The position numbers were made by a program, and so were the translations under genes. This document shows positions 42,985-63,976 of a stretch of DNA of 64,000 bases, piece by piece (position 1 is the first letter of the stretch; each line of letters opens with the position of its first letter). The notes beneath the pieces are model-generated. The model saw only the letters and a program-made list of their open reading frames with translations. It did not search any database and was not told where the DNA came from. Source of the DNA: Paludibacter sp. (GTDB lineage: Bacteria > Bacteroidota > Bacteroidia > Bacteroidales > Paludibacteraceae); the NCBI GenBank assembly GCA_010365115.1, contig JAAFGX010000007.1, forward strand, positions 1-64,000, given 5' to 3'.

Positions 42985-43070
42985 TTTTTTGTTTTTAGGT
43001 GAATTGTTTGTTTTGTAAATGTTTTTGTTTTGTATAACTGTTTAGCAAGTATTGTATTTCTCAAAAGTCA

Positions 43071-46292: not shown

Positions 46293-46297
46293 ATATT

Positions 46298-46711: not shown

Positions 46712-47361
46712 TGACACAACTAATATTAATATCCATTTTTCTATATATCGTTTGGGTACTGCTTTATTGGCAACGTAAACGAATAAAAAAGTTCTTTAAT
46801 TCAAAAACTGAACTACCACCCATTATTTCTCCGATTGAACCGGTCGATGACGATATTATGGGCAAAACCAAACCTCGAATCGTTGAACTGATTGAAAAAC
46901 CCATTGCAATGGCTGTCTCACAAGAGAATAGCCGCTCTGCATTGGTTGATAAGAGTGAGTTAGATGCCGTGTTTTCTGACACTCCCGAACCAATGGATTT
47001 GGATGTAGAATTTGAATACAATGAAGAGGAATTGTTGGAGGAAGAAGAATTAATTTGTTTGTTGGATAATGAAACTATTGAACTGGCAACCGGCATTCAC
47101 TATGATGATATGGAAAACCTTATTCAGGTAATGCAACAAAGCCGGACTTCGCAAGAAGCAGAACTGAATGCCGTGAACACAATTCATGAAATGGATCAAA
47201 CCGATCTTTTTCAACTCATGGTCTCGCAAATTGAAGGTGGCAAAGAAAGAGTAACTGAAATGTTGAACAAGTATAAAACGGATTCTGTTGAGAAAAACTC
47301 AACGAATGTTGAAAGTCGAAATGCAGGCTTTCAGCAGTTCGAGATAAATGAGTTTTTATAA
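46711..47361 (+). CDS. TraD-like conjugal transfer protein
   Basis: The 216-residue protein has one N-terminal transmembrane helix (about 3-20) and a long acidic cytoplasmic region (EFEYNEEELLEEEELICLL). The C-terminal part has helical segments. Its position after traA-traB/C matches TraD of Bacteroidales conjugative transposons. The function is unknown. A large hairpin follows the stop. Confidence 0.6.
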   Translation: MTQLILISIFLYIVWVLLYWQRKRIKKFFNSKTELPPIISPIEPVDDDIMGKTKPRIVELIEKPIAMAVSQENSRSALVDKSELDAVFSDTPEPMDLDVEFEYNEEELLEEEELICLLDNETIELATGIHYDDMENLIQVMQQSRTSQEAELNAVNTIHEMDQTDLFQLMVSQIEGGKERVTEMLNKYKTDSVEKNSTNVESRNAGFQQFEINEFL

Positions 47362-47402
47362 CTATATTTTGACAGTAAATCGAGTTTACGGTCAAAATAT
47401 AG
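47362..47402 (+). terminator. large hairpin ending the traA-D transcript
   Basis: The 12-bp arms CTATATTTTGAC / GTCAAAATATAG are exact, with an inner GTAAA/TTTAC stem after one mismatch and a TCGAG loop. It begins immediately after the traD stop and lies between convergent genes. There is no U-run, so termination is inferred. Confidence 0.6.
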
Positions 47403-47508
47403 CTTGTTTCTTGTTGATATAGAATACTTTCGTATTGTTAATATGTGAAGAATGACTGTCAGTCATATTTCATGCAACATTTTAATAATTTGCTTTGACG
47501 AATGCATT

Positions 47509-48843
47509 TTAACAGTATTTTTCCAAAAGCTTTTCTAATACACATACATAATACAATGGGACATTTATTAATTTAAACTCTTTGCCCTTTGGTGTTTTAA
47601 CGACATCCACCGAAAGGGGTTGTGACCATACCCTTACAGCGATATTGTGAGGAGCTTCTTCCATGTAGAGGTGTAAGGATTTTAATTTTGAATTATGACC
47701 CGATTTCACCTCAATGGGGATAGCACTGTTTTTATACTGTATCACAAAATCAACCTCGGCAGAGGATTGAGTTTTGTTTCTTTCCCAGAATTGCCTATGC
47801 GACGACACTTGCCATTTCAACGACAGTAATTCCTGAGCGACAATATGCTCAGCAATCCGTCCACGCCAAGCATCCATTACATCTGTTACCGAAAAAAGGC
47901 TTTCTCTAACACCTGCAATATAATTTACTAAACCAGTATCGAACCAGATAAGTTTGGGTCGGTGGGACATTGATGTCAACATGGGTATTTGTACACTTGT
48001 AACAGGGTAAACCAATTCCAACAGCATTGCCTTTTCGATGGTACGAAAAGCCTCACTCACTTCACGCGATTTGTAATTAGAATTACCAAATCGTTCAAAA
48101 GTTATTCTTTCAGCAGCAAAACTCCATCCGTTTTTTAAAATATACCGTATGATTTGGGCTATTGATTCGTTTCTTGCATATTTTTCTACATCATCTATAT
48201 ACGCATTTAATAAGGTTTCGTAGATTGTATCCACCGATAAAACATCCCTTTTTACTGCGTATTTATTAATAGCCGCTGGCATTCCACCAACGATGGCGAA
48301 ATTTGTAAACAACGTCATTACACGATTATGGACACTCGAAACATTTAAGTTATTGACTAAATCTAAGTCAAAGTCTTCACCAATACCATTTAAAAATTCC
48401 AAAAAAGAGCAAGGACGGATGGCTAAATACTCAACCCTACCAACAGGAAATGAAATATGTTTATCAATCAAGCTCTCCAACAACGAACCGGCACAGATAA
48501 CATGCAGTTGCTTCATCTCCTCATAAAAATATCTTAGCATGGCTACTGCCTTTGGCGAGCTTTGTATCTCATCGATAAACAATAATGTTTTACTCGATTT
48601 TTTTTGTTGTTTGCAATGCCTGTAAATAGCATCCGTTAGCTCTACGATATTGGAAAACTGTTCAAACAATAATTTATCTTCAGGTTTATCCAAATTCAGC
48701 GATAAAAGCACATCGAATTTTTTTGAGAACTCCATTACCATAGTTGTTTTTCCTACTTGTCTTGCACCACGGAGTATCAATGGCTTTCTATCTTCACTTT
48801 CAGCCCATTTTTCTAAGTATTTAAATGCATTCCTCTTAATCAT
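47509..48843 (-). CDS. AAA ATPase with DUF4143 C-terminal domain
   Basis: The 444-residue protein has Walker A GARQVGKT (26-33), Walker B LLFIDEI (87-93) and a sensor-like ICAGSLLES. The C-terminal DUF4143 domain holds a PD-(D/E)xK-like core AEVDF...IPIEVKSG (Asp365, Glu378, Lys380). The family is abundant in anaerobes and archaea, often varies between strains, and its role is unproven. It sits on the opposite strand between traD and traE, so it is cargo that splits the tra operon. Its promoter overlaps a 33-bp iterated repeat, suggesting tight regulation. The nuclease-like motif is a reading of the sequence, not established activity. Confidence 0.85.
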   Translation of the reverse strand: MIKRNAFKYLEKWAESEDRKPLILRGARQVGKTTMVMEFSKKFDVLLSLNLDKPEDKLLFEQFSNIVELTDAIYRHCKQQKKSSKTLLFIDEIQSSPKAVAMLRYFYEEMKQLHVICAGSLLESLIDKHISFPVGRVEYLAIRPCSFLEFLNGIGEDFDLDLVNNLNVSSVHNRVMTLFTNFAIVGGMPAAINKYAVKRDVLSVDTIYETLLNAYIDDVEKYARNESIAQIIRYILKNGWSFAAERITFERFGNSNYKSREVSEAFRTIEKAMLLELVYPVTSVQIPMLTSMSHRPKLIWFDTGLVNYIAGVRESLFSVTDVMDAWRGRIAEHIVAQELLSLKWQVSSHRQFWERNKTQSSAEVDFVIQYKNSAIPIEVKSGHNSKLKSLHLYMEEAPHNIAVRVWSQPLSVDVVKTPKGKEFKLINVPLYYVCVLEKLLEKYC

Positions 48844-48871
48844 AACTGTATGTTTTTTATTTTATTCGGTG

Positions 48872-48902
48872 CAAAGATACACATTGTTTGTAACAAAACA
48901 AG
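48872..48902 (-). promoter_or_regulatory. Bacteroidota-type promoter of the DUF4143 gene
   Basis: On the minus strand a -7 box TATCTTTG (48879-48872) is preceded by CTTG (48902-48899) at exactly 19 bases, close to the TTTG-N19-TAnnTTTG consensus. Transcription would start about 20 bases before the ATG at 48843. Confidence 0.7.
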
Positions 48903-49003
48903 GGTATAAATGCTATTTATTTGTAATAGAACAAGGGTTTAAATGTCTTATACTTGTAATATAACAAGGGTATAAACATTGTATATTTGTAATAAAACAA
49001 GGG
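48888..49003. repeat. four 33-bp-spaced operator-like repeats
   Basis: A 17-bp motif, TTGTAAnAnAACAAGGG, starts at 48888, 48921, 48954 and 48987, exactly 33 bp apart. Each holds a dyad TTGT-N6-ACAA. The 16-bp spacers vary but share TATAAA-like and TATnTTG parts. The first copy overlaps the -33 box of the DUF4143 promoter. The fixed three-turn spacing places sites on one helix face, as for a cooperatively bound repressor. Confidence 0.8.
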
Positions 49004-49012
49004 GTTAATTGA

Positions 49013-49147
49013 ATGCGACTACCAATAACCTCTTGTGGGTTAAAACTATATGACTTCAAAGACAACATCAATGAGCATGTCTATCCACCGTCTATTGAAC
49101 TGCCAACCTTTATCATACCAAAAAAGTCAATTGACAACTCTATTTAG
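49013..49147 (+). CDS. possible 44-residue small protein, unrecognised
   Basis: An ATG just after the last 33-bp repeat opens 44 codons to a TAG. The peptide (MRLPITSCGLKLYDFKDNIN...) has protein-like composition but no family I recognise. A TATATTTG box at 48982-48989 lies upstream without a good -33 partner. It may instead be a gene fragment or untranslated leader. Confidence 0.25.
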   Translation: MRLPITSCGLKLYDFKDNINEHVYPPSIELPTFIIPKKSIDNSI

Positions 49148-49204
49148 GCTAAATCAAATCTCTAAATAAGCCAACCACTGACAAATGACGACTCTCTAAG
49201 TCAA

Positions 49205-49238
49205 TTTGAAAAACCGACACAAATGCCCCTTACATTTG
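49205..49238 (+). promoter_or_regulatory. candidate promoter of the traE-Q operon
   Basis: TTTG at 49205-49208 and TACATTTG at 49231-49238 match -33 and -7 boxes, with a 22-base gap. A start point near 49245 would exclude the ATG at 49243 and favour the traE start at 49267. Confidence 0.5.
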
Positions 49239-49266
49239 CCGAATGAAATTAATAAAAAACAATTTT

Positions 49267-49569
49267 ATGACTAGAAAAAAGGTATTTATAACGGCAGCCT
49301 GCATATTGGCTGCATGTGCTCTTGTTCGCGCACAAGGGAATGGTTTGGCAGGGATTAGTGAGGCAACAAACATGGTTACTTCCTATTTTGAACCCGCCAC
49401 CAAGTTGATTTACGCCATTGGTGCCGTTATCGGTTTGATAGGTGGTGTGAAAGTGTATAGCAAGTTTTCATCGGGTGATCCTGATACCAGTAAAACGGCT
49501 GCTTCGTGGTTCGGAGCGTGTATCTTTTTGATTGTGGCAGCTACCATTCTGCGTTCCTTTTTCTTGTAA
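49267..49569 (+). CDS. traE: TraE (DUF4134) small membrane protein
   Basis: From the ATG at 49267 the product has 100 residues: a signal-like helix (KVFITAACILAACALVRA) and two further hydrophobic helices (LIYAIGAVIGLIGGVKVY; GACIFLIVAATILRSFFL). This is the VirB2-pilin-like pattern of TraE. An ATG at 49243 adds 8 residues. It heads the main tra operon, with traF 4 bases downstream. Confidence 0.85.
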   Translation: MTRKKVFITAACILAACALVRAQGNGLAGISEATNMVTSYFEPATKLIYAIGAVIGLIGGVKVYSKFSSGDPDTSKTAASWFGACIFLIVAATILRSFFL

Positions 49570-49573
49570 CGCC

Positions 49574-49891
49574 ATGGCAGATTATCCAATAAATAAAGGA
49601 ATCGGTAAATCAGTTGAGTTCAAAGGGCTGAAAAGCCAGTACCTCTTCCTCTTTGCCGGTGGACTTCTCACCATCTTTGTCCTGTTCGTCATTTTGTATA
49701 TGACAGGTATTGGACAATGGTTCTGTATCGGATTTGGGGTCATTTCGGCATCCCTTCTTGTGTGGCAAACCTTTGCCTTAAATAACAAATACGGTGAATA
49801 TGGGCTGATGAAATTATCAGCAGTCAGGAATCACCCGAAGTACCTGCTCAATCGCAAACGCTTTTCCCGATTATTTTCATCAACCAAATAA
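49574..49891 (+). CDS. traF: TraF (DUF4133) membrane protein
   Basis: The ATG at 49574 gives 105 residues; an earlier in-frame start would overlap traE. It begins ADYPINKGIGKSVEFKGLK, typical of DUF4133, and has two adjacent transmembrane helices (about 24-68). It is the counterpart of VirB3, an inner-membrane partner of the TraG ATPase encoded next. Confidence 0.87.
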   Translation: MADYPINKGIGKSVEFKGLKSQYLFLFAGGLLTIFVLFVILYMTGIGQWFCIGFGVISASLLVWQTFALNNKYGEYGLMKLSAVRNHPKYLLNRKRFSRLFSSTK

Positions 49892-49900
49892 AATAAAAAC

Positions 49901-52396
49901 ATGAGAAACGTATTAAAAGCAGCAACCCTCGAAAGCAAGTTCCCCATCTGGGGCGTGGAAATGGGTTGCATTATCTCGAAAGATGCCGATATAACGGTTG
50001 CTTTCAAGGTAGAACTACCTGAACTCTTTACTGTAACAGGTAAAGAATACGAAGCCATTCAATCCGCCTGGACCAAAGCGGTTAAGGTGCTTCCTGATTA
50101 TTCCATTGTGCACAAACAGGATTGGTATATCAAAGAACAATACGAACCGGAAGTAAATCACGATATGAGTTTTCTTTCCCGAAGTTTTGAACGCCATTTC
50201 AATGAACGTCCCTATCTGAATCACACTTGTTATCTCTTTCTGACCAAGACTACCAAGGAACGTGCTCGGATACAGAGTAACTTTTCCACTTTGTGTCGTG
50301 GCTCTATTATTCCCAAAGAGTTTAAAGACAAAGAAACCCTAGTAAAGTTTTTGGAAGCAGTCGGTCAATTTGAACGAATCGTTAACGATGGTGGATTTAT
50401 TTCGCTCACTCGATTGAAAACAGATGAAATTGTCGGAACGGAAAATACTGCCGGAATTGTAGAAAAGTATTTTTCACTTTCACAGGAAAATACAACCACC
50501 CTAAAAGACATCACCCTAAAAGCAGAAGAAATGAGGATTGGAGACAAAATATTGTGTTTGCACACTTTGTCGGATGTGGATGATTTGCCAAGTTCAGTGG
50601 GAACCGATATCAGATACGAGAAACTCTCAACCGACCGTTCTGATTGTCGATTATCGTTTGCTTCTCCTGTGGGATTGTTGCTTTCTTGTAACCATATCTA
50701 CAATCAATACCTTTTTATTGATAATAGTTCCGAGACCCTCCAAAAGTTTGAAAAGATGGGGCGCAATATGCATTCATTGTCCAAGTACAGTCGGAGCAAC
50801 CAAATCAATAAAGAGTGGATTGACAAATACCTGAACGAAGCCCACAGTTACGGGCTTACTTCTATCCGTTGCCATTGTAATGTGATGGCGTGGAGTGATG
50901 ACCGTGAAGAACTCAAACACATTAAAAACGATGTAGGAAGTCAACTGGCATTGATGGAATGTAAGCCCCGGCATAATACCGTTGATACTCCAACACTCTT
51001 TTGGGCGGGCATTCCGGGTAATCAAGCCGATTTTCCGGCGGAAGAAAGTTTTTATACGTTTATCGAACAGGGTGTGTGCTTTTTTACTGAAGAAACGAAT
51101 TACAAAAGTTCCGTTTCGCCTTTCGGTATAAAAATGGTGGATCGGTTGACAGGAAAACCCATTCATGTGGATATATCGGATTTGCCGATGAAAAAAGGAA
51201 TTATCACCAACCGAAACAAATTTATTCTCGGTCCATCTGGAAGTGGAAAGTCATTTTTTACCAATCACATGGTACGGCAATATTACGAACAAGGTTCACA
51301 TGTGTTGTTGATCGATACCGGTAACAGTTACCTTGGACTATGCGAAATGATTCATCGAAAAACAGGGGGTGAAGATGGTGTCTATTTCACCTATAGCGAA
51401 CAAAATCCCATTGCGTTTAATCCTTTTTTTACAGAAGATGGTGTGTATGATATTGAAAAGCGGGAAAGTATCAAAACCTTGATTCTGACTTTGTGGAAAC
51501 GGGATAATGAACCTCCATCGCGAGCCGAAGAAGTAGCTCTTTCCAATGCAGTCAGTTTGTATATAGAAAAAATCAAAAGCAAAGAATTAACACCTTCTTT
51601 CAATAGCTTCTATGAATACGTAGAAACAGAGTACAGGGAAGTATTGAATAGTAAAAAGGTGCGGGAAAAAGATTTTGATATTGCCAACTTTTTGAATGTG
51701 CTCGAACCGTATTACAAAGGCGGCGAATATGATTACTTACTGAATTCTGATAAACAGATTGATTTGCTTTCCAAACGATTTATCGTTTTCGAACTGGATA
51801 ACATCAAGGATCATCCCATTTTATTTCCGATTGTGACCATTATTATCATGGAAGTCTTTATCAATAAAATGAGAAGATTGAAAGGAATCAGAAAGGTTAT
51901 TCTCATTGAGGAAGCTTGGAAAGCCATTGCCAAGGAAGGTATGGCGGAATATATCAAATACCTTTTTAAAACGGTTCGTAAATACTTTGGAGAAGCCATT
52001 GTGGTCACACAGGAAGTGGAAGATATCATTGCTTCTCCTATTGTCAAAGAATCTATTATCAATAATTCTGACTGTAAAATTCTGTTGGATCAGCGCAAGT
52101 ACATGAATAAATTTGACGCTATTCAAGCTCTGCTGGGTCTTACGGAAAAGGAAAAAGCGCAGGTTCTTTCCATCAATTTGGCTAATAATTCGAACCGACT
52201 GTACAAAGAGGTTTGGATTGGTTTGGGAGGCACACAATCTGCCGTCTACGCCACGGAAGTCTCCATGGAGGAGTACCTGACCTATACCACCGAAGAATCC
52301 GAAAAACTGGAATTATTCAATCTCGTGGAAAAGTTGGATGGGGATATTGAATTAGCCATTAAACAACTCTCCGAAACAAAGCAACTCAGTAAATAA
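49901..52396 (+). CDS. traG: TraG: VirB4-like conjugation ATPase
   Basis: The 831-residue protein has Walker A GPSGSGKS (about 444-451) and Walker B VILIEEAWKAI (about 664-674). The N-terminal half (VRB4-type region) begins with a segment typical of TraG (KFPIWGVEMGCIISKDADIT). It powers assembly of the type IV secretion channel. Spacing from traF is 9 bases. The length is normal for the family. Confidence 0.92.
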   Translation: MRNVLKAATLESKFPIWGVEMGCIISKDADITVAFKVELPELFTVTGKEYEAIQSAWTKAVKVLPDYSIVHKQDWYIKEQYEPEVNHDMSFLSRSFERHFNERPYLNHTCYLFLTKTTKERARIQSNFSTLCRGSIIPKEFKDKETLVKFLEAVGQFERIVNDGGFISLTRLKTDEIVGTENTAGIVEKYFSLSQENTTTLKDITLKAEEMRIGDKILCLHTLSDVDDLPSSVGTDIRYEKLSTDRSDCRLSFASPVGLLLSCNHIYNQYLFIDNSSETLQKFEKMGRNMHSLSKYSRSNQINKEWIDKYLNEAHSYGLTSIRCHCNVMAWSDDREELKHIKNDVGSQLALMECKPRHNTVDTPTLFWAGIPGNQADFPAEESFYTFIEQGVCFFTEETNYKSSVSPFGIKMVDRLTGKPIHVDISDLPMKKGIITNRNKFILGPSGSGKSFFTNHMVRQYYEQGSHVLLIDTGNSYLGLCEMIHRKTGGEDGVYFTYSEQNPIAFNPFFTEDGVYDIEKRESIKTLILTLWKRDNEPPSRAEEVALSNAVSLYIEKIKSKELTPSFNSFYEYVETEYREVLNSKKVREKDFDIANFLNVLEPYYKGGEYDYLLNSDKQIDLLSKRFIVFELDNIKDHPILFPIVTIIIMEVFINKMRRLKGIRKVILIEEAWKAIAKEGMAEYIKYLFKTVRKYFGEAIVVTQEVEDIIASPIVKESIINNSDCKILLDQRKYMNKFDAIQALLGLTEKEKAQVLSINLANNSNRLYKEVWIGLGGTQSAVYATEVSMEEYLTYTTEESEKLELFNLVEKLDGDIELAIKQLSETKQLSK

Positions 52397-52481
52397 TCCA
52401 TTTAATAGTAGCTTGAAATTTTCAAAAACTCACAATTTTAAATTCAGTATCAAACCCATTACAAAAAGACAAAACAAAAAA

Positions 52482-53111
52482 ATGAAAACAAAAATCTATT
52501 TAGCAGCCATTCTTCTAATGAGCTGTATCATGAGTTCAAAGGCACAATTTGTAACATTCGACCCTACGAATCTGGTTCAAAGCATTGTGAATACAACCAA
52601 TCAAGTGGTTCAAACCTCTACCACTGCCACCAATATGGTAAACAATTTCAAGGAAACAGTAAAACTGTATGAACAGGGCAAAAAGTATTATGATGCACTA
52701 AAGTCAGTCAATAATTTAGTCAAGGATGCTAAGAAAGTGCAGCAAACCATTCTGATGGTTGGCGACATTTCTGACATTTATATCAATAACTTTCAAAAAA
52801 TGCTCAGTGACAAAAACTATACAGTTGAAGAGTTGGGAGCCATTGCTTTTGGTTATGCCAAATTGCTGGAGCAAAGCGGTGATCTACTTGCCGAATTGAA
52901 AGCAGTCGTCAATGCAGGTGGACTATCCATGACCGACAAGGAACGTATGGATATTATTGATCGCACCTACAATTCGGTGAGAAAGTACCGCAATTTGGTC
53001 AGCTATTACACCAGGAAGAATATTTCAGTTAGCTACCTTCGTTCACAACGAAACGGCGACTCCAACCGGGTGATGGCTTTGTATGGCAATGCAAACGAAA
53101 AATACTGGTAA
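52482..53111 (+). CDS. traI: TraI (DUF4141) secreted/periplasmic protein
   Basis: The ATG at 52482 begins a signal peptide (MKTKIYLAAILLMSCIMSSKA) and gives 209 residues; the in-frame TTG at 52413 lacks a signal-like start. The mature part is a long helical, coiled-coil-like protein (LVQSIVNTTNQVVQTS onward), typical of DUF4141, a VirB5-like component. In CTnDOT traH lies between traG and traI; here only an 85-base gap remains. Confidence 0.82.
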   Translation: MKTKIYLAAILLMSCIMSSKAQFVTFDPTNLVQSIVNTTNQVVQTSTTATNMVNNFKETVKLYEQGKKYYDALKSVNNLVKDAKKVQQTILMVGDISDIYINNFQKMLSDKNYTVEELGAIAFGYAKLLEQSGDLLAELKAVVNAGGLSMTDKERMDIIDRTYNSVRKYRNLVSYYTRKNISVSYLRSQRNGDSNRVMALYGNANEKYW

Positions 53112-53114
53112 ACC

Positions 53115-54125
53115 ATGTTAGTAGCCATTGAATTCGATAACCTGCACCAGATATTAAAAAGTCTGTATGTAGAGATGATGCCACTCTGTTCCAATATGGC
53201 AGGTGTTGCTAAGGGGATAGCAGGTCTGGGTGCTTTGTTTTATGTTTCCTCTCGGGTGTGGCAATCTTTAGCCAGAGCCGAACCAATTGATGTGTATCCG
53301 CTGCTGCGCCCTTTTGCCATTGGTTTATGTATTATGTTCTTTCCCATTTTTGTTTTAGGAACTCTCAACGGGGTGTTAAGCCCGATTGTCCGGGGTACGA
53401 ATCAAATGCTTGAATCGCAAACTTTTGATATGGTCAGCTACCAAAAACAAAAAGACAAACTGGAATATGATGCTATGATGAAGAATCCTGAAAGTGCTTA
53501 TTTGGTTAGCAATGAAGAGTTCGACAAGCAGCTGGAAGAGTTGGGTTGGAGCTCAACCGATGTAGCCACCATGACGGGAATGTATGTCGATAGAGGAATG
53601 TATAATATGAAAAAATCCTTCCGGGATTTCCTTCGTGAATTGCTGGAAATACTGTTTCAAGCGGCTTCACTGGTAATTGATACCATACGCACCTTTTTCT
53701 TAATTGTTTTGGCCATACTCGGACCCATAGCTTTTGCCATAAGTGTTTGGGATGGCTTTCAATCTACCATGACCCAATGGATCACTCGCTATGTGAGTGT
53801 CTATCTCTGGCTACCGGTTTCTGATTTGTTCAGTACCATTCTTGCCAAGATACAAGTATTGATGTTGCAAAATGATATTTCTGAATTGCAAAACAACCCG
53901 AACTATTCTATCGATGCTTCTAACGGTGTATATATCATTTTTATGATCATCGGCATTATTGGATATTTCACTATCCCAACAGTGGCTGGTTGGATTATTC
54001 AGGCAGGTGGCATGGGAAATTATGGTAAGAATGTCAGTAGTACGGCAGGCAAAACAGGATCGGTTGCCGGTGGTGTGGTTGGAGCAGCAACAGGTAATGT
54101 AAGTGGTCGCCTTCTTCATAAATAG
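53115..54125 (+). CDS. traJ: TraJ: polytopic VirB6-like membrane protein
   Basis: The 336-residue protein has several transmembrane helices (about 27-50, 72-93, 190-225, 270-295) and a glycine-rich C-terminus (GGMGNYGKNVSSTAGKTG). It begins 3 bases after the traI stop. It forms part of the inner-membrane channel by analogy with VirB6. Confidence 0.88.
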   Translation: MLVAIEFDNLHQILKSLYVEMMPLCSNMAGVAKGIAGLGALFYVSSRVWQSLARAEPIDVYPLLRPFAIGLCIMFFPIFVLGTLNGVLSPIVRGTNQMLESQTFDMVSYQKQKDKLEYDAMMKNPESAYLVSNEEFDKQLEELGWSSTDVATMTGMYVDRGMYNMKKSFRDFLRELLEILFQAASLVIDTIRTFFLIVLAILGPIAFAISVWDGFQSTMTQWITRYVSVYLWLPVSDLFSTILAKIQVLMLQNDISELQNNPNYSIDASNGVYIIFMIIGIIGYFTIPTVAGWIIQAGGMGNYGKNVSSTAGKTGSVAGGVVGAATGNVSGRLLHK

Positions 54126-54178
54126 CATTAATTGAATAGATAAAAACAGATATTTAAAAACATAAAAATATAAAACAG

Positions 54179-54802
54179 ATGGAATTTAAATCATTAAAAA
54201 ATATAGAAACGAGTTTTAAGCAGATCAGACTCTTCAGCATTATTTTTCTCTGCTTGTGTGCTGCACTTACGGGATATTCGGTATGGAGTTCTTACAACTT
54301 TGCGGAAGCACAACGACAGAAAATATATGTGTTAGACGGAGGGAAATCCTTGATGCTGGCTCTTTCGCAAGACCTATCGCAAAACAGGCCGGTCGAAGCC
54401 AGGGAGCATGTAAAAAGGTTTCACGAACTTTTCTTTACCCTTTCGCCCGATAAGAATGCAATAGAAAGCAATATCAAAAGAGCACTATTTCTTTCGGACA
54501 AAAGTGCGTTCAACTATTATTCCGATTTATCGGAAAAAGGTTATTACAACGGAATCATTTCGGGAAATATAAATCAGGCCATTCAAGTGGATAGCGTGAT
54601 TTGTAGCTTTGAAAAATATCCCTATCAGGTTATGACCTATGCCCGGCAGATGATTATCCGTGAAAGTAATGTGACCGAACGGAGTTTGATTACCAAATGC
54701 CAGTTGCTAAATTCGGTGCGAAGTGATAATAATCCGCAGGGCTTTATTATTGAAGATTTTGAGGTAGTAGAAAACAATGACCTAAGAGTCGTAAACAGAT
54801 AA
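54179..54802 (+). CDS. traK: TraK: VirB8-like inner membrane protein
   Basis: The 207-residue protein has a single N-terminal transmembrane helix (about 18-40) and a periplasmic NTF2-like domain, as in the VirB8/TraK family. Typical segments include EFKSLKNIETSFKQIR at the start and GFIIEDFEVVENNDLR near the end. It lies 4 bases before traL. Confidence 0.88.
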   Translation: MEFKSLKNIETSFKQIRLFSIIFLCLCAALTGYSVWSSYNFAEAQRQKIYVLDGGKSLMLALSQDLSQNRPVEAREHVKRFHELFFTLSPDKNAIESNIKRALFLSDKSAFNYYSDLSEKGYYNGIISGNINQAIQVDSVICSFEKYPYQVMTYARQMIIRESNVTERSLITKCQLLNSVRSDNNPQGFIIEDFEVVENNDLRVVNR

Positions 54803-54806
54803 AGTT

Positions 54807-55076
54807 ATGAAAAGGAAAATCTATAAAATTCAAAGTAGGATAGAAGAAAAGTTGCAAAACTATTGTGCTTCCCTTTCTCCAAAGAGAAGGTTGCTCTCCA
54901 TAGTGATAGTAAGTGCCGTTTTCGGAATTGTCTCGCTTTACATGGCAATAAGTGGCTTCTACAATATCAACAGAACGGACAATGAGCAAATCAAGATTCA
55001 ACATATCAACGAACTGCAATTACATGCACGGGATAGTATTTATCAACTAAATTTAAAACAGAATGAAGAAAACTAA
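54807..55076 (+). CDS. TraL-like (DUF3989) small membrane protein
   Basis: The 89-residue protein has one transmembrane helix (about 28-52) and charged flanks. Its position between traK and traM and its size match TraL. It overlaps traM by 14 bases, so translation is coupled. Confidence 0.72.
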   Translation: MKRKIYKIQSRIEEKLQNYCASLSPKRRLLSIVIVSAVFGIVSLYMAISGFYNINRTDNEQIKIQHINELQLHARDSIYQLNLKQNEEN

Positions 55077-56409
55077 CGAGGGCGACAAACCTCAAAAACA
55101 GATGCTGACTGTAGAACAAAAGCAACGACAAAAAAAGATGCTGATTTTTCCATTGATGTTCATCGTCTTTGGCTTATGTATGTGGTATATTTTTTCTCCT
55201 TCGAAGTCGGAGAAAGCAAAAGACCCCAAAGGATTTAATACCACGATTCCAATGCCAAAAAACAAAGAACTGGTTAGCGACAAAAAAGCAGCGTATGAGC
55301 AGGAAAAGATGGAACAGACCAACGGGCAGCGAATGCATTCGTTAAAGGAAATGGCCTCCATGTTTAATCAAGAAACCACAGGTTCGGATAATTCTAATTT
55401 GAATAATGGAAATGAATCTAATCTGATAACAGAGTCAAAGTCAGGATCAAAATCTAAAATGAACCCAAACTATTCAAGAAGAAGTGGTGGTAGCAGGCAA
55501 CCTATTGCCACGATTCAAAGTTCAAACAATGCTTATCGGCAAATCAATCGGAATCTGGGTAATTTCTTTGAATCCTCAAAAGATAATCCTGCAACCGAGA
55601 AGCGGAATCAACATGTGGAAGCAGTTTCAGCTAAACTACAGGAAGCGGAAAATCGTAAGACCTTGATGGATGCACAAATTCAACTGATGGAAAAATCCTA
55701 TGAAATGGCTGCTAAATATATTCCACAAGGACAGCAAGTCGGAGGGCTGAATACAACAAATACCGGTACTTCGAATCCAAACAAGAAAATAAAAGTTTCC
55801 AGGGTTAAGCAAGTAGTTGAGCAACCGGTTTCAACTTTGCCGCAAGGGTTAAGTGATTCTGTCCGAATTGCGAACAGTAAACAACCGCATAACCGCAGAT
55901 TTAATACTGCGGTTGGTAATCCTTTAAATGAAGACATAAACACCATAAAAGCCTGTATCAATGAAAATTGTTCGCTAACCAATGGTCAAAGTGTCCGGTT
56001 GCGAATACTTGAGCCCTTGCAAGTTGGAACAACCCTTATCCCAAAAAACAGCCTGATTTCCGGTGATGCAAAGATTCAAGGCGACCGATTGGAAATTTTT
56101 ATTCAGTCGATGGAATATCATGGGATGATTATTCCGGTGGAACTAACTGCATATGATACCGATGGTCAGGAAGGAATTTTTATTCCGGGCTCTATGGAGA
56201 TAAATGCATTCAAAGAAATGGCGGCTGGTATGGGTTCGAAAATGGGCACAAGCGTTTCATTTACCCAATCTGCCGGTCAACAATTGTTATCAGGCTTAGG
56301 GAAAGGAGTTATTCAAAGTGGGTCACAGTATTTGTCCAAGAAATTCCAATCAGTTACCGTCAAATTAAAAGCCGGTTATCAGGTCTTGTTACTTTCTAAC
56401 CAAGAATAA
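55063..56409 (+). CDS. traM: TraM conjugative transposon protein
   Basis: The 448-residue protein has a cytoplasmic basic N-terminus, one transmembrane helix (about 26-46), a long low-complexity Asn/Ser-rich linker and coiled segments, and a C-terminal beta domain (about 275-448) with PKNSLISGDAKIQGDRLEIF, as in TraM. It is comparable to VirB10, which spans both membranes. Confidence 0.9.
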   Translation: MKKTNEGDKPQKQMLTVEQKQRQKKMLIFPLMFIVFGLCMWYIFSPSKSEKAKDPKGFNTTIPMPKNKELVSDKKAAYEQEKMEQTNGQRMHSLKEMASMFNQETTGSDNSNLNNGNESNLITESKSGSKSKMNPNYSRRSGGSRQPIATIQSSNNAYRQINRNLGNFFESSKDNPATEKRNQHVEAVSAKLQEAENRKTLMDAQIQLMEKSYEMAAKYIPQGQQVGGLNTTNTGTSNPNKKIKVSRVKQVVEQPVSTLPQGLSDSVRIANSKQPHNRRFNTAVGNPLNEDINTIKACINENCSLTNGQSVRLRILEPLQVGTTLIPKNSLISGDAKIQGDRLEIFIQSMEYHGMIIPVELTAYDTDGQEGIFIPGSMEINAFKEMAAGMGSKMGTSVSFTQSAGQQLLSGLGKGVIQSGSQYLSKKFQSVTVKLKAGYQVLLLSNQE

Positions 56410-56488
56410 TTGTTCGACGAAACAACTGATATTAATAATCAAAACAACTAATTAGTGAGCTTATTACCTCACACAAACGAAAATAGAA

Positions 56489-57421
56489 ATGAAAAAAGTA
56501 AAAATGAAAAAAACAATGATTTGGATGGTTTTACTTCTGGTATCCATCCTAACAATAAATGCACAAACGACGAAAGGTGATTCATCCGAAGGTTGGTCAA
56601 CGGAAATTACTTTCGATAAAATGATATCGCCTTATGAGCTGGAAGTTACTTTTGATAAGACGGTACATATTATTTTTCCGGCGGCTATTCGGTACATCGA
56701 TTTGGGTTCTACCAATATTATTGCAGGCAAAGCCGATGGAGCTGAAAACGTTATACGTGTGAAAGCTGCCATTCGAGATTTTAAAACGGAAACGAATTTT
56801 TCGGTGATTACTGAAGAGGGAAGCTTTTATTCTTTCAATGTAAACTATTCAAATGAACCCCACATGCTGAATGTAGAAATGAAGGATTTTATTCATGATG
56901 GCGATACGATTAACCATCCCAACAATGCGCTGGGAGTCTATCTCAAGGAATTGGGTAACGAATCTCCTATGTTGGTACACATGATTATGAAATCCATCTA
57001 TCAAAACGACCGCAAGGAAATCAATCACATTGGTTGTAAACGTTTTGGCATTCAGTATCAGCTAAAAGGAATATATACCCATAATGGTCTGCTTTATTTT
57101 CATACACAACTCACCAATTCTTCCAATGTCCCATTTGATTTGGATTTTATCCTATTCAAGATTGTAGATAAAAAAGTGGTCAAACGTACTGCCATTCAGG
57201 AAACAATTATTATTCCCATTCGAGCTTTCAATTACGTCACGCATGTGGCAGGGAAAAGTAGTGAACGCACCGTTTTTACGCTGGATAAGTTTACCATTCC
57301 GGACGATAAACAATTGGTAGTAGAACTCAATGAAAAAAATGGGGGTCGCCATCAACGCTTTGTAGTTGAGAATAGTGATATAGTACGAGCAAATGTGGTT
57401 AACGAATTGAAAATCAAATAA
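56489..57421 (+). CDS. traN: TraN (DUF4138) VirB9-like protein
   Basis: The 310-residue protein has a signal peptide (to about residue 26). The beta-rich mature part has TFDKTVHIIFPAAIRYIDLG near the start, the hallmark of DUF4138/TraN. The start could be 56489 or the Met five codons on. It would form the outer-membrane core with TraM and TraO. The next gene starts one base after the stop. Confidence 0.9.
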   Translation: MKKVKMKKTMIWMVLLLVSILTINAQTTKGDSSEGWSTEITFDKMISPYELEVTFDKTVHIIFPAAIRYIDLGSTNIIAGKADGAENVIRVKAAIRDFKTETNFSVITEEGSFYSFNVNYSNEPHMLNVEMKDFIHDGDTINHPNNALGVYLKELGNESPMLVHMIMKSIYQNDRKEINHIGCKRFGIQYQLKGIYTHNGLLYFHTQLTNSSNVPFDLDFILFKIVDKKVVKRTAIQETIIIPIRAFNYVTHVAGKSSERTVFTLDKFTIPDDKQLVVELNEKNGGRHQRFVVENSDIVRANVVNELKIK

Positions 57422-57422
57422 A

Positions 57423-57986
57423 ATGAAACGAGCAATTATAATTTTTATCGCCTGTATTAGCTTGAGTGGACTATTACACGCACAACGTTACCTCACCGGA
57501 CAGCAAGGCATTCAACTCACGTATGGAGAAGTAAACGGCATAATCCCTTTACGGACATTTTACGCCGGAGCTGCTGTTGCAACCTACACACAAAATGGGA
57601 GTCACTGGGTCTTTGGAGGAGAATATTTGCAAAAACAAATTAATTACAGGTATATTCAACTTCCGGTAGCTCAGTTTACAGGTGAAGGTGGGTATTACTA
57701 CGGTTTGCTTTCCGATCCAAGTAGAACCTTTCTTTTGTCCATTGGTGCGTCTGCTTTAGCAGGGTATGAAACCAGCAATTGGGGCAATAAAATGCTCTAT
57801 GATGGAGCTACGCTTCTTAATCAGGATGCTTTTCTGTATGGAGGTGCAATAACCATCGAACTTGAAGCTTATATCACAGATCAAATAGTGTTTTTAATCA
57901 ATGCCCGTGAACGAATCCTTTGGGGTTCGTCCATTGGTAAATATACGACTCAATTTGGAGCAGGATTAAAAATTATTATCAACTAA
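57423..57986 (+). CDS. traO: TraO outer-membrane-type transfer protein
   Basis: The 187-residue protein has a signal peptide ending at LLHA. The remainder is a beta-barrel-like protein with aromatic-rich strands, as in the TraO family (RYLTGQQGIQLTYGEVNG). It follows traN by one base. Confidence 0.82.
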   Translation: MKRAIIIFIACISLSGLLHAQRYLTGQQGIQLTYGEVNGIIPLRTFYAGAAVATYTQNGSHWVFGGEYLQKQINYRYIQLPVAQFTGEGGYYYGLLSDPSRTFLLSIGASALAGYETSNWGNKMLYDGATLLNQDAFLYGGAITIELEAYITDQIVFLINARERILWGSSIGKYTTQFGAGLKIIIN

Positions 57987-58000
57987 AAACAAAATCAACA

Positions 58001-58468
58001 ATGAAAAAGATAGTTATAATCAGTATGGTAGCCTTGGTGCTGCTATGTTCAGGATGTGACGATAAGTTGGATGTCCAGCAAGCCTATGATTTTTTGCTTA
58101 GCACCATGCCGGTACAAACGAAAATCAAACTTTGGGAAACAGTAGAAATTCGCTGTCAATTGAATCGTAAAGGAATGTACGAAGATGCCAAATACTATAT
58201 TGGCTATTTTCAAACAGAAGGAAAAGGTATTCTACAAAAACCAAACGGTGAGGTGTTAGCTCCGAATGATTTTTATGAATTGGATAACGAAACTTTCCGA
58301 CTATACTACACTTCTTTTTGTAATGTCCAACAGTTAATTGATATCACCTTACACGATAATTTTGATCAGGAATATAAATTTAGCCTAAGCTTTACAAATA
58401 ATACTGAAGGCACAGGTTCTCGCTCGGTAATTAGTACAGTTCAAAAGTCCGGTTCTATTTTTCGATAA
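58001..58468 (+). CDS. traQ: TraQ (DUF3872) lipoprotein
   Basis: The 155-residue protein has a lipobox LCSGC with Cys19 and a beta-sandwich-like body (Ig-like). It corresponds to TraQ of CTnDOT. The primase gene traP normally sits between traO and traQ but only 14 bases separate them here. A strong terminator follows. Confidence 0.85.
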   Translation: MKKIVIISMVALVLLCSGCDDKLDVQQAYDFLLSTMPVQTKIKLWETVEIRCQLNRKGMYEDAKYYIGYFQTEGKGILQKPNGEVLAPNDFYELDNETFRLYYTSFCNVQQLIDITLHDNFDQEYKFSLSFTNNTEGTGSRSVISTVQKSGSIFR

Positions 58469-58493
58469 AATCAAAAAGAATATCTTGAATTTA

Positions 58494-58557
58494 AAAACGG
58501 GAAATAACTTTTGGAGCCGTTCCATCGAGCTCGAAAAAAGTTATTCTCGTTTTTTTA
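58494..58557 (+). terminator. terminator of the tra operon
   Basis: AAAAACG...AATAACTTTT pairs with AAAAGTTATT...CGTTTTT across a 24-base loop region, with about three mismatches, and ends in seven Ts. It separates the tra operon from the convergent ABC-3C operon. Confidence 0.75.
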
Positions 58558-58651: not shown

Positions 58652-60358
58652 CTATTCTTTTATTCTGAATAACTTATCATTTTGTGATAATTTAACAACA
58701 AAATATTCTTCTTTATTAATTTCTATAGGAAGTTTATCTTTAAGAATAGAAGCGACAAATTGAATATTGTTTTTGTTTACAAATTCGGAAATTTTAACCA
58801 ACTGTTTGTCGTCCATTAGTTCCTTTTTATCATTCAATAAAAAATGTAAACATGGAATATTCTCTTCATCAGCAAATAAAGTATAAGCCAAATCAAAACA
58901 AGATATTTCTCCTTGCTTTTTACCCGAACTCATGTTCGCATTAAATGAACTGAACTTGTATAATCTCTGACCTTTTCTATTTGTAATAATGTCGGGTTTG
59001 ACGGCGTATTGCTCTCCATACAATTCATTTGAAATTGCAGCAAAGTGTTTATTGAATTTATTTAGTTGTGTTTTTACAACTAGTTCGAAACTGTCGCTAA
59101 AAAGTTCGTTATCAATTTCACTAAGTTGTTTGTTAAATTCCTTGATGTTGAATTCAACCTCATTCAACTGTTGAATGGTGTTTTCATATTCACCTTTCTT
59201 TCGGTGTTTTTCAGTCAATTCACTGATTACCTTTTCCAGTTCGTCAAAGGAATCACTTTTTGAAATTAAAGCGATTAACTTTTGTTCCTCTGCAAGTAGT
59301 TGCTTTAGTGAATTATTATTTTCTGAAATTGATTTTTCTAACGCAGGCATTTCTTTGGTGACAAATTTCACCTTCTCTTCAATCATTGTGTTGTGAAAAG
59401 CAACGAGGTCTGAAAATGATTTTTGAATTGAGGTAATTTTATTTGTTGCTTGTTCGTAAATAATTTCTAATTGTCTCAAATCAATATCTGACCTACTAGA
59501 TTTAAGTTCTTCCTCAGTTTCTTTTATTAGGTCTTTACGAATATTCAACTTACCGATACTAGAACTCAATTTATTTATGCCGTATCTAATCTCGTTCAAA
59601 CTGTCTAAGTCTTTCTCAAAGTTTTCATTTAGATTGAAACTACTTTTCTTTTTGTTTAGTTCCTCAATATCATTATTGATTAATGCTAAAGCAGTTTCAT
59701 ATGCAGTTTTGGTTTGGTTTTTCTCAAGTCTACTTTTGTATGTATCTTCCTGTTTTATTTTAGTTAATATTTCCTGCTTGCTGTTTCCATTCATGAATTC
59801 GCAACCGAAAAGAAAGAGATATAGTGTTTCATATTGCGCATCAGATGTATAGGTGTCAAGAGTTTTTAAAGTGTTATTAATACTTTCATCTTTATATCGG
59901 ATGTTATGTGAAATTATTTGCCTGAAAGTTGGTTTGCTTGCAAGATGCTCAGGGAAAAGGATATTTGATAACCTCAAATCAAATTCTTCCTCAGTCATTG
60001 TATCTCCATTTATTGTTCTTTTAAGTTCCTTCCTGGCCAAGAAGTTTCTTTCAATCACAATATCTTCAGTTCCTTTATCTAATTCAGTAGTTAGGATAAG
60101 GGTAATGAGAATTTTATTTTCAATTAGGTAATCTTTAACAAGTTTGTATTCCTGCCTTTTTGTTTCAGGATCAACATAAATGTGTTTAGGGTTGGCTCCC
60201 AAACAAAAATCAACCAATTTAAGAACAGTTGTTTTACCAACACTGTTGCCTGTTATTTGAAGTTCACTTTCATCAACGATAAGATTAAGACCTTTATGAA
60301 ATTCAATTTCACGAATGACTTTAGCTCCACTTGTAATAGTTAATGATTTTATGAACAT
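58652..60358 (-). CDS. DUF2326 SMC-like ABC ATPase (ABC-3C component)
   Basis: The ATG at 60358 (MFIKSLTITSG) is chosen; an upstream start at 60421 would add a non-conserved prefix. The product has 568 residues. The N-terminal half-domain carries a Walker A of the DUF2326 kind, TGNSVGKTT (36-44). A long coiled coil spans about 180-430. The C-terminal half-domain has the signature-like SSGKKQGEISCFDLAY and a Walker B-like CLHFLLND. The usual Glu after the Asp is replaced by Lys, so hydrolysis may be slow or switch-like. It overlaps the middle component by 10 bases. Related ATPases are predicted to sense invaders and license an effector. Confidence 0.85.
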   Translation of the reverse strand: MFIKSLTITSGAKVIREIEFHKGLNLIVDESELQITGNSVGKTTVLKLVDFCLGANPKHIYVDPETKRQEYKLVKDYLIENKILITLILTTELDKGTEDIVIERNFLARKELKRTINGDTMTEEEFDLRLSNILFPEHLASKPTFRQIISHNIRYKDESINNTLKTLDTYTSDAQYETLYLFLFGCEFMNGNSKQEILTKIKQEDTYKSRLEKNQTKTAYETALALINNDIEELNKKKSSFNLNENFEKDLDSLNEIRYGINKLSSSIGKLNIRKDLIKETEEELKSSRSDIDLRQLEIIYEQATNKITSIQKSFSDLVAFHNTMIEEKVKFVTKEMPALEKSISENNNSLKQLLAEEQKLIALISKSDSFDELEKVISELTEKHRKKGEYENTIQQLNEVEFNIKEFNKQLSEIDNELFSDSFELVVKTQLNKFNKHFAAISNELYGEQYAVKPDIITNRKGQRLYKFSSFNANMSSGKKQGEISCFDLAYTLFADEENIPCLHFLLNDKKELMDDKQLVKISEFVNKNNIQFVASILKDKLPIEINKEEYFVVKLSQNDKLFRIKE

Positions 60359-60576
60359 AGTACAACTTCTCCTTTTGAATTCAATTTTGCAACATCTATT
60401 AAATACAACCAATCTAAGCAAAGTATAAAAAGAGAAAACGACATTTCTCTTTTTACTTTTACCTCTTGGAATAAGTCAAGTATTTTGAAAGTACAATCTT
60501 TTTTTAAAGATTCAATCACAAAAGCACCGTTATAGTAAATGCTATTTTCAGGATGAATATTATCGGGTAGAAGCAT
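60349..60576 (-). CDS. small middle component of ABC-3C system (MC6-like)
   Basis: The ATG at 60576 (MLLPDNIHPENSIYYNGA) gives 75 residues; the longer frame from 60624 lies inside the upstream gene. Its pattern, an LP start, YNGAFVIESL, then a C-terminal helix SFSLFILCLDWLYLI, resembles the middle components of ABC three-component systems, which bridge effector and ATPase. It overlaps the SMEK gene by 17 bases and the ATPase gene by 10. The exact MC class is from memory. Confidence 0.68.
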   Translation of the reverse strand: MLLPDNIHPENSIYYNGAFVIESLKKDCTFKILDLFQEVKVKREMSFSLFILCLDWLYLIDVAKLNSKGEVVLCS

Positions 60577-61531
60577 AATTGTAATTGTTTGGGTTATCAA
60601 AAATTTTACATCGAACAAATGCATCTACAACAAGGATATTTACGCAAAGTTCAAGTTCGTCAAATGGTATAGAAGTATAATTTACGCTATTTAAAACCTT
60701 TTCTTGTACTTTAAAAATTACTTCAAAGAAAAGTTGGTCGTCATTAAATCCACTTTTTGCTTTTGCATACTCTTGTCTGATTGTAGAAAGAACATATTTG
60801 CTTTTGTTACTACCTAGCGAATCATACTCTGAATAAATCCTATCAACTCTACCATTATGAACAAAAAAGTCGTCGATTATTATTTTAGCTGCATTCAATT
60901 TATTATGCGAAATCTTTCTATTAATTTCAAAACTATTGATTTCTGAAGTTAAATCAGACTTATCCAAATCCTCTTTGGATAGAATATTTATGACAGCAGC
61001 CAAGTTAGACTCAAGTTTCATTGGATCAATTTCAGCAACTAATTCTTTTTTTATAAATTCATATATCCTCTTTTGGTCATCAATATGTAAGCCTCTTATT
61101 CTTGTCAAAATAGATCTATTATCCAGAATGTCAGTAGAAGGAGCGAAATTAATTCTTTGTGAATTTTTAAATGAATCTTTTCTTAAATCATCAGCATCTT
61201 TGGCAATTGAAATAAACTTAAAAGTATATCCTGTATAATTCTTTATTGAGTCCTTTGAAAGTGAGGATTCAACTTTTTGTTTGCTCGCTGTAGCCGATAC
61301 TTGAATTATAAATTTGTTTGTATGATCAATCAAATCTATTGCTTCTACATTTTGCTTGAAATCGTTTTCATTTATTACTGTCCAGCCATAAAGTTCGTTC
61401 AAAAAATATTGATAAAAATTTTCTGAGTGTCCGTGAAAATCCAAAATATTCAATTTTCCCCTCCGAGTTATCCGAAGAGCAAGAAGGTCAAGCCTTTCTT
61501 CAATAATATTAAAGTACCCTGGTCTATTCAT
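60560..61531 (-). CDS. SMEK-domain protein with ABC-3C C-terminal domain (predicted effector)
   Basis: The 323-residue protein has an N-terminal SMEK-like domain (about 1-165). It includes NVEAIDLIDHTNKFIIQVSA (61-80) followed by TASKQKVESSL. The spacing of Asp66 and Gln77 recalls restriction-endonuclease-like folds that act on nucleic acid, though a nuclease role is only suggested. The C-terminal domain (about 200-323), with INRKISHNKLNAAKIIIDDF, fits the ABC-3C C-terminal domain that recruits the ATPase complex. It is the first gene of the operon. A TAATTTTG box at 61549-61542 lies 10 bases before the ATG. It is convergent with the tra operon and is probably a defence cargo of the element. 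Confidence 0.72.
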   Translation of the reverse strand: MNRPGYFNIIEERLDLLALRITRRGKLNILDFHGHSENFYQYFLNELYGWTVINENDFKQNVEAIDLIDHTNKFIIQVSATASKQKVESSLSKDSIKNYTGYTFKFISIAKDADDLRKDSFKNSQRINFAPSTDILDNRSILTRIRGLHIDDQKRIYEFIKKELVAEIDPMKLESNLAAVINILSKEDLDKSDLTSEINSFEINRKISHNKLNAAKIIIDDFFVHNGRVDRIYSEYDSLGSNKSKYVLSTIRQEYAKAKSGFNDDQLFFEVIFKVQEKVLNSVNYTSIPFDELELCVNILVVDAFVRCKIFDNPNNYNYASTR

Positions 61532-61985: not shown

Positions 61986-63832
<1,847 letters not shown>

Positions 63833-63976
63833 CGGTTGGAGTGCAAACGGCTTTTTTGCCATTCTGCAAAAAGTGTGACAGAAAAAAAACAACAGCAGGG
63901 TTGATTGTGTGTAAGCCGACAAAAAGACCGTGCAAGCAATGAGGTACGAATGGTGGGGATTCTGACCTGCGGAGCT

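Follow-up and report, generated by a model that had tools for sequence, protein, structure and literature searches.

A SMEK/MC6/DUF2326 operon beside a conjugative element of Paludibacter sp., a probable ABC-3C immune system

The Lamassu superfamily takes in the ABC-3C systems, and the ABC-3C middle component is equated with LmuC in PMC10586767. The same paper describes a change from Glu to Gln in the Walker B motif of LmuB and regards the SMC-like protein of Lamassu as its likely sensor. The SMEK domain is known from another context: SMEK-APAZ, paired with a short Argonaute from Kordia jejudonensis, is reported in PMC12205087 to act as a weak collateral nuclease that attacks both ssDNA and dsDNA. 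Experiments on a SMEK-type ABC-3C effector were not found in the literature searched. The action of SMEK is better documented than the original prediction stated.

The window analysed here comprises 64,000 nucleotides of contig JAAFGX010000007.1 of Paludibacter sp. (GCA_010365115.1). Three minus-strand ORFs spanning 58652-61531 encode a SMEK_N+CTD10 effector, the ABC-3C middle component MC6 and a DUF2326 ATPase (Table 1). The effector and MC6 genes overlap by 17 bases (60560-60576) and the MC6 and ATPase genes by 10 bases (60349-60358), as originally described. The start of the ATPase gene was set at a TTG at 60421 by ORF calling; the ATG at 60358 corresponds in position to the earliest in-frame ATG of all 12 close relatives. 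Pfam profiles matched all three proteins above cut-off: SMEK_N (PF21941, E 2.3e-35) and CTD10 (PF20275, E 1.4e-30, 107.1 bits at a cut-off of 28.1) in the effector, MC6 (PF20293, E 1.3e-26) in the middle component and DUF2326 (PF10088, E 1.2e-21) in the ATPase. The identities and the ABC-3C arrangement proposed from the bare sequence were thereby borne out, including the profile matches for the SMEK and middle-component proteins that had been named as a check. Judged by its predicted proteins, the operon has the genetic make-up of an ABC-3C system: a CTD10-fused effector, a middle component and an SMC-like ATPase. We consider it an immune system of this kind within the Lamassu superfamily, in which an ATP-gated DNA clamp would unleash a nuclease, with a probability of about 0.7.

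Gene order and a spacing of 218 bases between the MC6 and ATPase starts were conserved in 12 of 12 close loci, so that the expectation that the three genes stay together was confirmed. Mean pN/pS values of the three genes were 0.17, 0.18 and 0.11 (eight comparisons per gene, drawn from the 12 close loci after omission of L005, L008, L012 and L013). The genes are under purifying selection, and conserved order, spacing and low pN/pS together show that the operon is not a chance arrangement. Terminator-like sites were more frequent in the region than in shuffled sequences (4 vs 1.2, sd 1.4), and the promoter scan returned 18 matches vs 18.0 in shuffles. The inverted repeat between the convergent gene ends, absent from the list of the terminator scan, is a possible terminator.

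Table 1 Features of the operon and its surroundings in the window
Feature	Position	Strand	Remarks
Effector	60560..61531	-	323 aa; SMEK_N residues 10-145, CTD10 docking domain 175-311
MC6 (ABC-3C middle component 6)	60349..60576	-	75 aa; Pfam profile
DUF2326 SMC/Rad50-like ABC ATPase	58652..60358	-	568 aa; Pfam profile
Terminator-like stem-loop	58605..58625	-	directly 3' of ATPase gene, same strand; a pattern match, weak
Imperfect 20-base inverted repeat, 80%	58493..58555		between convergent ends of traQ and ATPase gene
Element backbone	45522..58468	+	profile matches
PDC-S01-type gene	47509-48843	-	interrupts backbone
Mobilisation genes (coupling protein, relaxase, MobC)	40981..44863	-	
ORF-poor degenerate repeat array	62000..63950		upstream of operon

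Nuclease effector, middle component and ATPase

Among NCBIfam models, the SMEK domain alone scored above cut-off (E 7.5e-29), and the PADLOC profile Aga_REase matched the same nuclease domain (E 6.1e-20). A solved structure is homologous: PDB entry 26bh, a short-Argonaute effector domain described as the 'Mrr domain' of the Mrr-APAZ pAgo from Kordia, was found with the single SMEK sequence (E 1.1e-7) and with a profile (E 2.6e-20). By this homology, the SMEK domain is assigned to the restriction-endonuclease-like domains of Mrr type. The Mrr-APAZ of 26bh and the SMEK-APAZ of PMC12205087 are probably the same protein. Residues E37, D66, Q77, S79, T81 and K86 were kept in all 21 aligned effectors, an alignment from which A4, L019 and L073 were left out, as were L095, nearly identical to L094, and L098, whose effector is cut; this conservation suggests E37, D66, Q77 and K86 as putative metal-binding or catalytic residues.

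Single-chain structure models of the effector and the ATPase were compared with the PDB. For the effector model, no PDB fold reached an E-value under 0.001 and YydB (9a6c_B, E 0.39) was the sole match of high probability; the LmuA and LmuC profiles did not match the two smaller proteins up to E 1. The MC6 profile, when applied to Bacillus subtilis as control genome, found a match that we take to be YydC, while the CTD10 and SMEK_N profiles had none in that genome.

The PADLOC profile PDC-M68B matched the ATPase better (E 4.6e-40) than LmuB did (E 6.8e-14). The P-loop of the ATPase comprises G37-T44, followed by a signature-like S477-Q482 and a presumed Walker B aspartate D510 with K511 behind it. 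G37, G41, K42, T43, T44 and S477-S478-G479 were invariant in 20 of 20 ATPases, and a CxxC zinc hook was present in none of these 20. The best PDB match of the ATPase model was YydD (9a6c_A, E 1.3e-20), at a TM-score of 0.48 and a large rmsd. Chains of the Salmonella Lamassu LmuACB matched with TM-scores of 0.35-0.39, again at large rmsd; among them were 9hqx_B, from an entry titled 'bound to DNA duplex' (E 4.9e-11, TM-score 0.37), and 9hqu, titled 'in nuclease sequestration state'. Neither YydD nor LmuB was found when the PDB was searched by sequence, with the ATPase, a profile of it or MC6 as query.

All 22 ATPases of the SMEK type, including one (L100) whose effector front is cut by the contig end, carry lysine at the position of the catalytic glutamate of ABC ATPases, whereas all five CTD10 relatives without SMEK carry glutamine there. 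The residues at the presumed Walker B motif read NDK in the SMEK type (n=22), [HY]DQ in the latter (n=5), whose effector domain is HNH-like or not recognised, and HDS in a distant clade (n=2). Glutamate follows the presumed Walker B aspartate in none of the 29 ATPases read. Another taxon sample of 98 genomes, searched to enlarge this comparison, added no genome: its matches lay in six genomes, all of which the Pfam CTD10 search had already found. The change to lysine in the SMEK-type ATPases may have been a single event. Second matches of Pfam CTD10 lie inside ATPase-length frames in four genomes (G378, G343, G272 and G244); a locally built CTD10 profile did not match these ATPases, so that no CTD10-like domain is assigned to the ATPase arms, but this is a weak test, as the profile also missed the effector CTDs of the same genomes. 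G224 is perhaps a fifth such genome.

Relatives and genomic setting

The three genes also occur on a Priestia megaterium plasmid, where the effector is 41% identical to that of the window and the products are labelled 'ABC-three component system protein', 'ABC-three component system middle component 6' and 'DUF2326 domain-containing protein'. The effector matched seven of 72,556 plasmid records, three of them over most of its length, and tblastn against 50,697 phage records gave no match. Scanning viral contigs with the single effector protein revealed no relative; an alignment query was needed to reach the distant copies there. Of these 10 viral-contig loci, eight contain all three genes and two are truncated where their contig ends. 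In six loci the effector matched little beyond CTD10, and two of these have an HNH_2-like front (E 0.0014 and 0.00077, below the Pfam cut-off). Effector domains appear to be exchangeable on a common CTD10/MC6/DUF2326 chassis. Across 19 loci, the identities of SMEK, CTD10 and ATPase drop together (Spearman 0.87-0.89; L089 and L091, whose contigs lack the ATPase, were dropped in addition to the effector-alignment exclusions); L012 is 77% identical to the window in SMEK, 82% in its ATPase and 59% in CTD10, a drop that is not claimed as a partial exchange of CTD10.

The operon adjoins traQ, which belongs to an extended tra set of CTnDOT type, and both tra and mob gene sets of such an element are present. 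The backbone starts with ParA-type, DUF3408 and DUF4122 (weak) genes, continues with DUF4134, DUF4133, TraG, DUF4141, TraJ and a gene lacking a match in the TraK position, and ends with TraL, TraM, DUF4138, TraO and TraQ; the tra letters of its DUF genes are presumed. On the other side of the operon, the same cargo stretch contains genes with matches to defence-type families, namely capP-like, AbiE and type IIG restriction genes. The repeat array upstream belongs to a repeat family of this genome and lies outside the system.

The original prediction regarded the operon as cargo of the conjugative element. Its position next to traQ and the defence-type genes beyond agree with this, but none of the 16 PF00589 integrase matches of the genome lies on this contig, which ends at 78519, and the fetched flanks (<=10 kb) of the 12 close relatives contain no homologs of the tra/mob genes of the window. 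Linkage to tra as a general rule is ruled out by the latter; the link is particular to this locus. Protection of the host or exclusion of rivals, the function suggested with it, remains a putative role. The position behind traQ would also suit an operon that, like DdmABC/Lamassu with plasmids, mainly excludes rival plasmids or conjugative elements and acts on phages only secondarily, and Vibrio Lamassu contributes to plasmid restriction according to PMC10586767. We hold this to be unlikely in view of the tra-free flanks of all close relatives, the phage genes near two of the distant viral-contig copies, and AbiE and type IIG restriction in the same cargo stretch.

An addiction module, in which MC6 and the ATPase restrain a nuclease that becomes free when the element is lost, so that the element is stabilised, would fit the tight and conserved overlapping operon, a potentially toxic nuclease and the copies on mobile DNA (the Priestia plasmid; near phage genes). 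This is quite improbable: at six of 11 close loci, a scan of one or two adjacent genes revealed neither mobile nor defence genes, and a DNA-clamp ATPase would be an unusual antitoxin. The sensor role proposed for the Lamassu SMC-like protein (PMC10586767) also speaks against it. A Rad50-Mre11-type repair or maintenance complex lacking any conflict role can practically be dismissed, since, for all the Rad50 and SMC heads among the structural matches of the ATPase model, the operon is patchily distributed (full-length close matches in three of 60 related genomes, its own counted), its effector domains appear exchangeable and its G+C content is low (0.30-0.32 vs 0.33-0.42 in other G+C windows).

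Proposed mechanism and comparison with known systems

The reading as an ABC-3C immune system draws on domain content, gene order, nuclease residues, the Walker B lysine, purifying selection and defence-type neighbours observed at this locus; its sensing, sequestration and collateral-cutting steps are modelled on the relatives and would proceed as follows. The DUF2326 ATPase would act as a short clamp of SMC/Rad50 type and recognise abnormal DNA, for example phage- or plasmid-derived ends or replication structures. MC6 and CTD10 would keep SMEK tethered to this clamp and inactive. Upon binding of ATP and DNA the clamp would close, and closure would be long-lived because of the lysine at the position of the catalytic glutamate. 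Closure would free or oligomerise SMEK, which would then cut DNA regardless of sequence; the invader would be destroyed and the cell would die or stop growing. Several results speak against this reading: the missing LmuA and LmuC matches and zinc hook, the low TM-scores of the ATPase model, the failure of PDB sequence searches to find YydD or LmuB, the effector model's lack of a significant fold match, and the six of 11 close loci at which the one or two adjacent genes scanned have no defence function.

A more far-reaching version is possible, though we consider it doubtful: the CTD10/MC6/DUF2326 clamp would act without ATP turnover, and the lysine of the SMEK clade would make it an irreversible ATP-binding fuse for a collateral DNase common to short-Argonaute and STAND systems, one nuclease module serving three unrelated sensors. 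If the mechanism is true, an SMC-like sensor fires a nuclease module that is otherwise fired by an Argonaute or, judging by domain content, a STAND NTPase. SMEK would be an added effector type for the Lamassu superfamily, encoded in a small and well-bounded operon, and the natural lysine-substituted ATPase head allows the need for ATP hydrolysis in such clamps to be asked.

The ABC-3C systems of the CTD10/MC6/DUF2326 type share each of the three families and the gene order with this operon, in which the effector is SMEK. YydB-YydC-YydD, which we take to be a Bacillus subtilis system, provided with YydD the best match for the ATPase model and with YydB a likeness to the effector model, but YydB has 481 residues in the 9a6c entry and the effector 323. 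Lamassu (LmuA-LmuC-LmuB, DdmABC) likewise combines an effector, a small middle protein and an SMC-like ATPase, and the likeness extends to the LmuB profile match, the fold match at low TM-score and the replaced catalytic Walker B glutamate. The operon differs from it in lacking LmuA and LmuC profile matches, in lysine instead of glutamine and in the missing CxxC hook; a zinc hook is present in many LmuB proteins, not in all. SPARDA of Kordia jejudonensis (SMEK/Mrr-APAZ with a short Argonaute) shares a homologous nuclease domain, but its sensor is an RNA-guided Argonaute, whereas the predicted sensor here is an ABC ATPase.

Gene arrangement and exchange of effector domains

The three overlapping minus-strand genes had been predicted to encode a SMEK protein, a middle component and a DUF2326 ATPase. 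Their positions and overlaps of 17 and 10 bases were confirmed by the gene coordinates, and all three proteins matched the respective Pfam profiles. The 323-aa effector carries SMEK_N (2.3e-35) and the docking domain CTD10 (1.4e-30), the 75-aa protein matches the middle component MC6 (1.3e-26) and the 568-aa ATPase matches DUF2326 (1.2e-21). Effector and ATPase each gave a single match in their own genome. Because arrangement, families and neighbours agree, an ABC-three-component (ABC-3C) immune operon is the clear best reading of the sequence, which supports the original prediction.

The genes also stay together elsewhere. Searching bacterial genomes with the effector yielded 12 close loci (68-82% identical), all with the same gene order and with 218 bases from the MC6 start to the ATPase start, as in the window. 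All 12 record titles name a MAG and 10 a Bacteroidota taxon; L007 and L011 are the same two related genomes found in a separate related-genome comparison. Further copies were found at L019 (49% identity), on a Priestia megaterium plasmid and on a Caballeronia megaplasmid, where effector and ATPase are each interrupted by a gap of >1 kb. Ten viral-contig loci (40-57% identity) were recovered, eight with all three genes, including L098, whose effector is cut by the contig start; at L089 and L091 the contig ends within the locus, and L094 and L095, matching at identical identities, are not independent. The effector served as the criterion of similarity for picking these loci; its partners did not. 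Mean pN/pS between the window and 8 of the 12 close loci was 0.17 for the effector, 0.18 for MC6 and 0.11 for the ATPase, values that, with synonymous sites near saturation in several comparisons, do no more than hint at purifying selection.

At six loci (L016, L025, L026, L027, L028 and L030) the effector match covers little beyond CTD10, beginning at residue 112 in L026 and at 172-177 in the others. MC6 and ATPase are present in unchanged order at all six; the L027 MC6, missed in the initial locus comparison, was seen in the MC6 profile and locus searches. An HNH_2-like front domain was indicated in L016 (0.0014) and L026 (0.00077), both below Pfam's own cut-off, L025 had no Pfam match ahead of CTD10, and in the remaining three CTD10 is preceded by a short N-terminus. 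Small ORFs immediately upstream of CTD10-only proteins (L108 3240-3452, L110 4298-4588) are possibly a separate effector or a fourth component. At close locus L012, CTD10 (residues about 211-310) resembles its relatives far less closely than SMEK and the ATPase do, a pattern that partial exchange would give.

In a sample of the phylum (395 genomes, counting that of the window itself), 10 had SMEK_N, 13 CTD10 and 24 MC6; apart from the window's genome, G421 alone is on both the SMEK and the CTD10 list. Of the eight remaining SMEK genomes, seven had no MC6 or ATPase match in the fetched locus of ~3.4 kb (L072 left out), and in a protein of a Staphylococcus equorum plasmid SMEK is fused to a NACHT-type NTPase. 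Given these separate occurrences and this fusion, SMEK is a general effector module.

Setting beside a CTnDOT-type tra set

Ten ORFs scanned at 1.9-36.4 kb of the window comprised eight of carbohydrate- or sugar-metabolism families and two with secreted-protein domains, by our own sorting. From 40.9 kb follow a coupling protein, a relaxase, MobC and a CTnDOT-type tra set ending with TraQ at 58468. The operon converges on traQ and lies next to the tra operon, as originally described. An ORF-poor repeat array separates it from the continuing contig, and the array has 11 more matches elsewhere in the genome, spread over the contigs C121, C95, C54 and C56. The array (window 62000-63950) is degenerate, with 314/421/509-base spacing, a three-base run near 63350 and a GC skew of +0.33.

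Features of the tra set and of the contig beyond the operon
Feature	Coordinates	Strand	Remarks
PDC-S01-type AAA_14/DUF4143 gene	window 47509-48843	minus	inside tra set
M78 peptidase	contig 64081-64869		PADLOC capP match 6.4e-63
The same M78 peptidase with two small upstream genes	contig 64081-65898 (L076 3082-4899)		same strand; small genes without Pfam match
Multiubiquitin, DUF6791-ThiF E1 and DUF6527 genes	contig 66203-68193 (L076 5204-7194)		in a row
AbiEii and AbiEi-type partner	contig 68641-70311
Type IIG restriction enzyme	contig 70789-73965

With these capP-like, AbiE, type IIG and other genes as neighbours, the operon opens a cargo stretch in which defence-type genes are abundant. The multiubiquitin row, part of this stretch, resembles a bacterial cassette for ubiquitin-like conjugation; no CBASS gene was found among the scanned neighbours of the capP-like peptidase. 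The type IIG enzyme is followed by a DUF4099/DUF3945 gene, which we take to be typical of such elements. No PF00589 integrase was found on this contig.

At 11 of the 12 close loci, 20 neighbour proteins were scanned (L010 had too little flank; L012 and L013 contributed one protein each). Restriction or conflict genes adjoin the operon or lie within ~1.1 kb in five of the 11, a count taken with no control set: type ISP (L002), type IIG-like (L007, L009), HsdM (L011) and TOTE primase-helicase (L013). Scanned neighbours at the other six were metabolic, surface or other genes. On the two viral contigs probed with several proteins, phage replication and nucleotide-metabolism genes (L094) and a lysis-class amidase (L096) lie within a few kilobases; the one neighbour protein tried at L090 had no match. 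The L004 record is named a Limnohabitans MAG, yet a neighbour has a Por secretion tail, presumably typical of Bacteroidota; the contig is perhaps misbinned.

Nuclease and ATPase sites

SMEK aligns to PDB entry 26bh (profile match 2.6e-20), named 'the Mrr domain from Kordia jejudonensis Mrr-APAZ pAgo'. H35, E37, D66, Q77, S79, T81 and K86 are kept in 21 of 21 aligned effectors, opposite H, E, D, Q, T, T and K of 26bh in the alignment. At the second residue past Q77, where a lysine is usual, the effectors have S79, and K86 may take over that lysine's role. When the effector was modelled with AlphaFold (mean pLDDT 80.2), Foldseek found no match below 0.001 in a fold library to April 2026, and 26bh was absent from the matches; the single high-probability match was YydB of 9a6c (E 0.39).

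The ATPase model (mean pLDDT 78.8, pTM 0.60) best matched 9a6c_A in the PDB, YydD of a YydD-YydB model (1.3e-20, TM-score 0.48), presumably from B. subtilis. LmuB-type chains of Salmonella Lamassu (9hqx, 9hqu; TM-score 0.35-0.39) came next, followed by SMC and Rad50 heads. The low TM-scores and large rmsd are what bent coiled coils would give. PDB sequence searches with the ATPase or its profile returned none of these structures.

All 20 ATPases compared share an unchanged P-loop and a signature-like SSGKKQ, and none has a CxxC motif. D510 is the presumed Walker B aspartate, judged by the motif and its place after a predicted strand. The next residue is lysine in all 20 SMEK-type ATPases and in two more of this type (L113, L073), and glutamine in each of the five ATPases linked to a CTD10 protein that lacks SMEK; two sequences from a distant ATPase clade have HDS at the motif. 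Since the ATPases of SMEK type also resemble one another most closely, the lysine may reflect a single event. In a distant ABC-3C clade (L032, L023, L024 and L035), Pfam CTD10 gave second matches within frames of ATPase length, which the local CTD10 profile did not reproduce.

Relation to known systems

Searches of the open-licence PMC literature, mostly at the level of titles and beginnings of abstracts, brought up no experiment with an ABC-3C system of SMEK type. Two papers count SMEK among APAZ-fused nuclease domains (PMC10810196) and describe weak collateral nuclease activity of the Kordia SMEK-APAZ/short Ago complex on ssDNA and dsDNA (PMC12205087). Based on the Lamassu and SPARDA relatives and the conserved residues, we propose that a DNA-sensing clamp would free a collateral nuclease. 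By profile, the operon is not a Lamassu system in the narrow sense, and neither LmuA nor LmuC profiles matched here. LmuB is reported to have lost the Walker B glutamate through a change to glutamine, with low or no hydrolysis suggested (PMC10586767); at the presumed equivalent position the ATPase of the operon has lysine.
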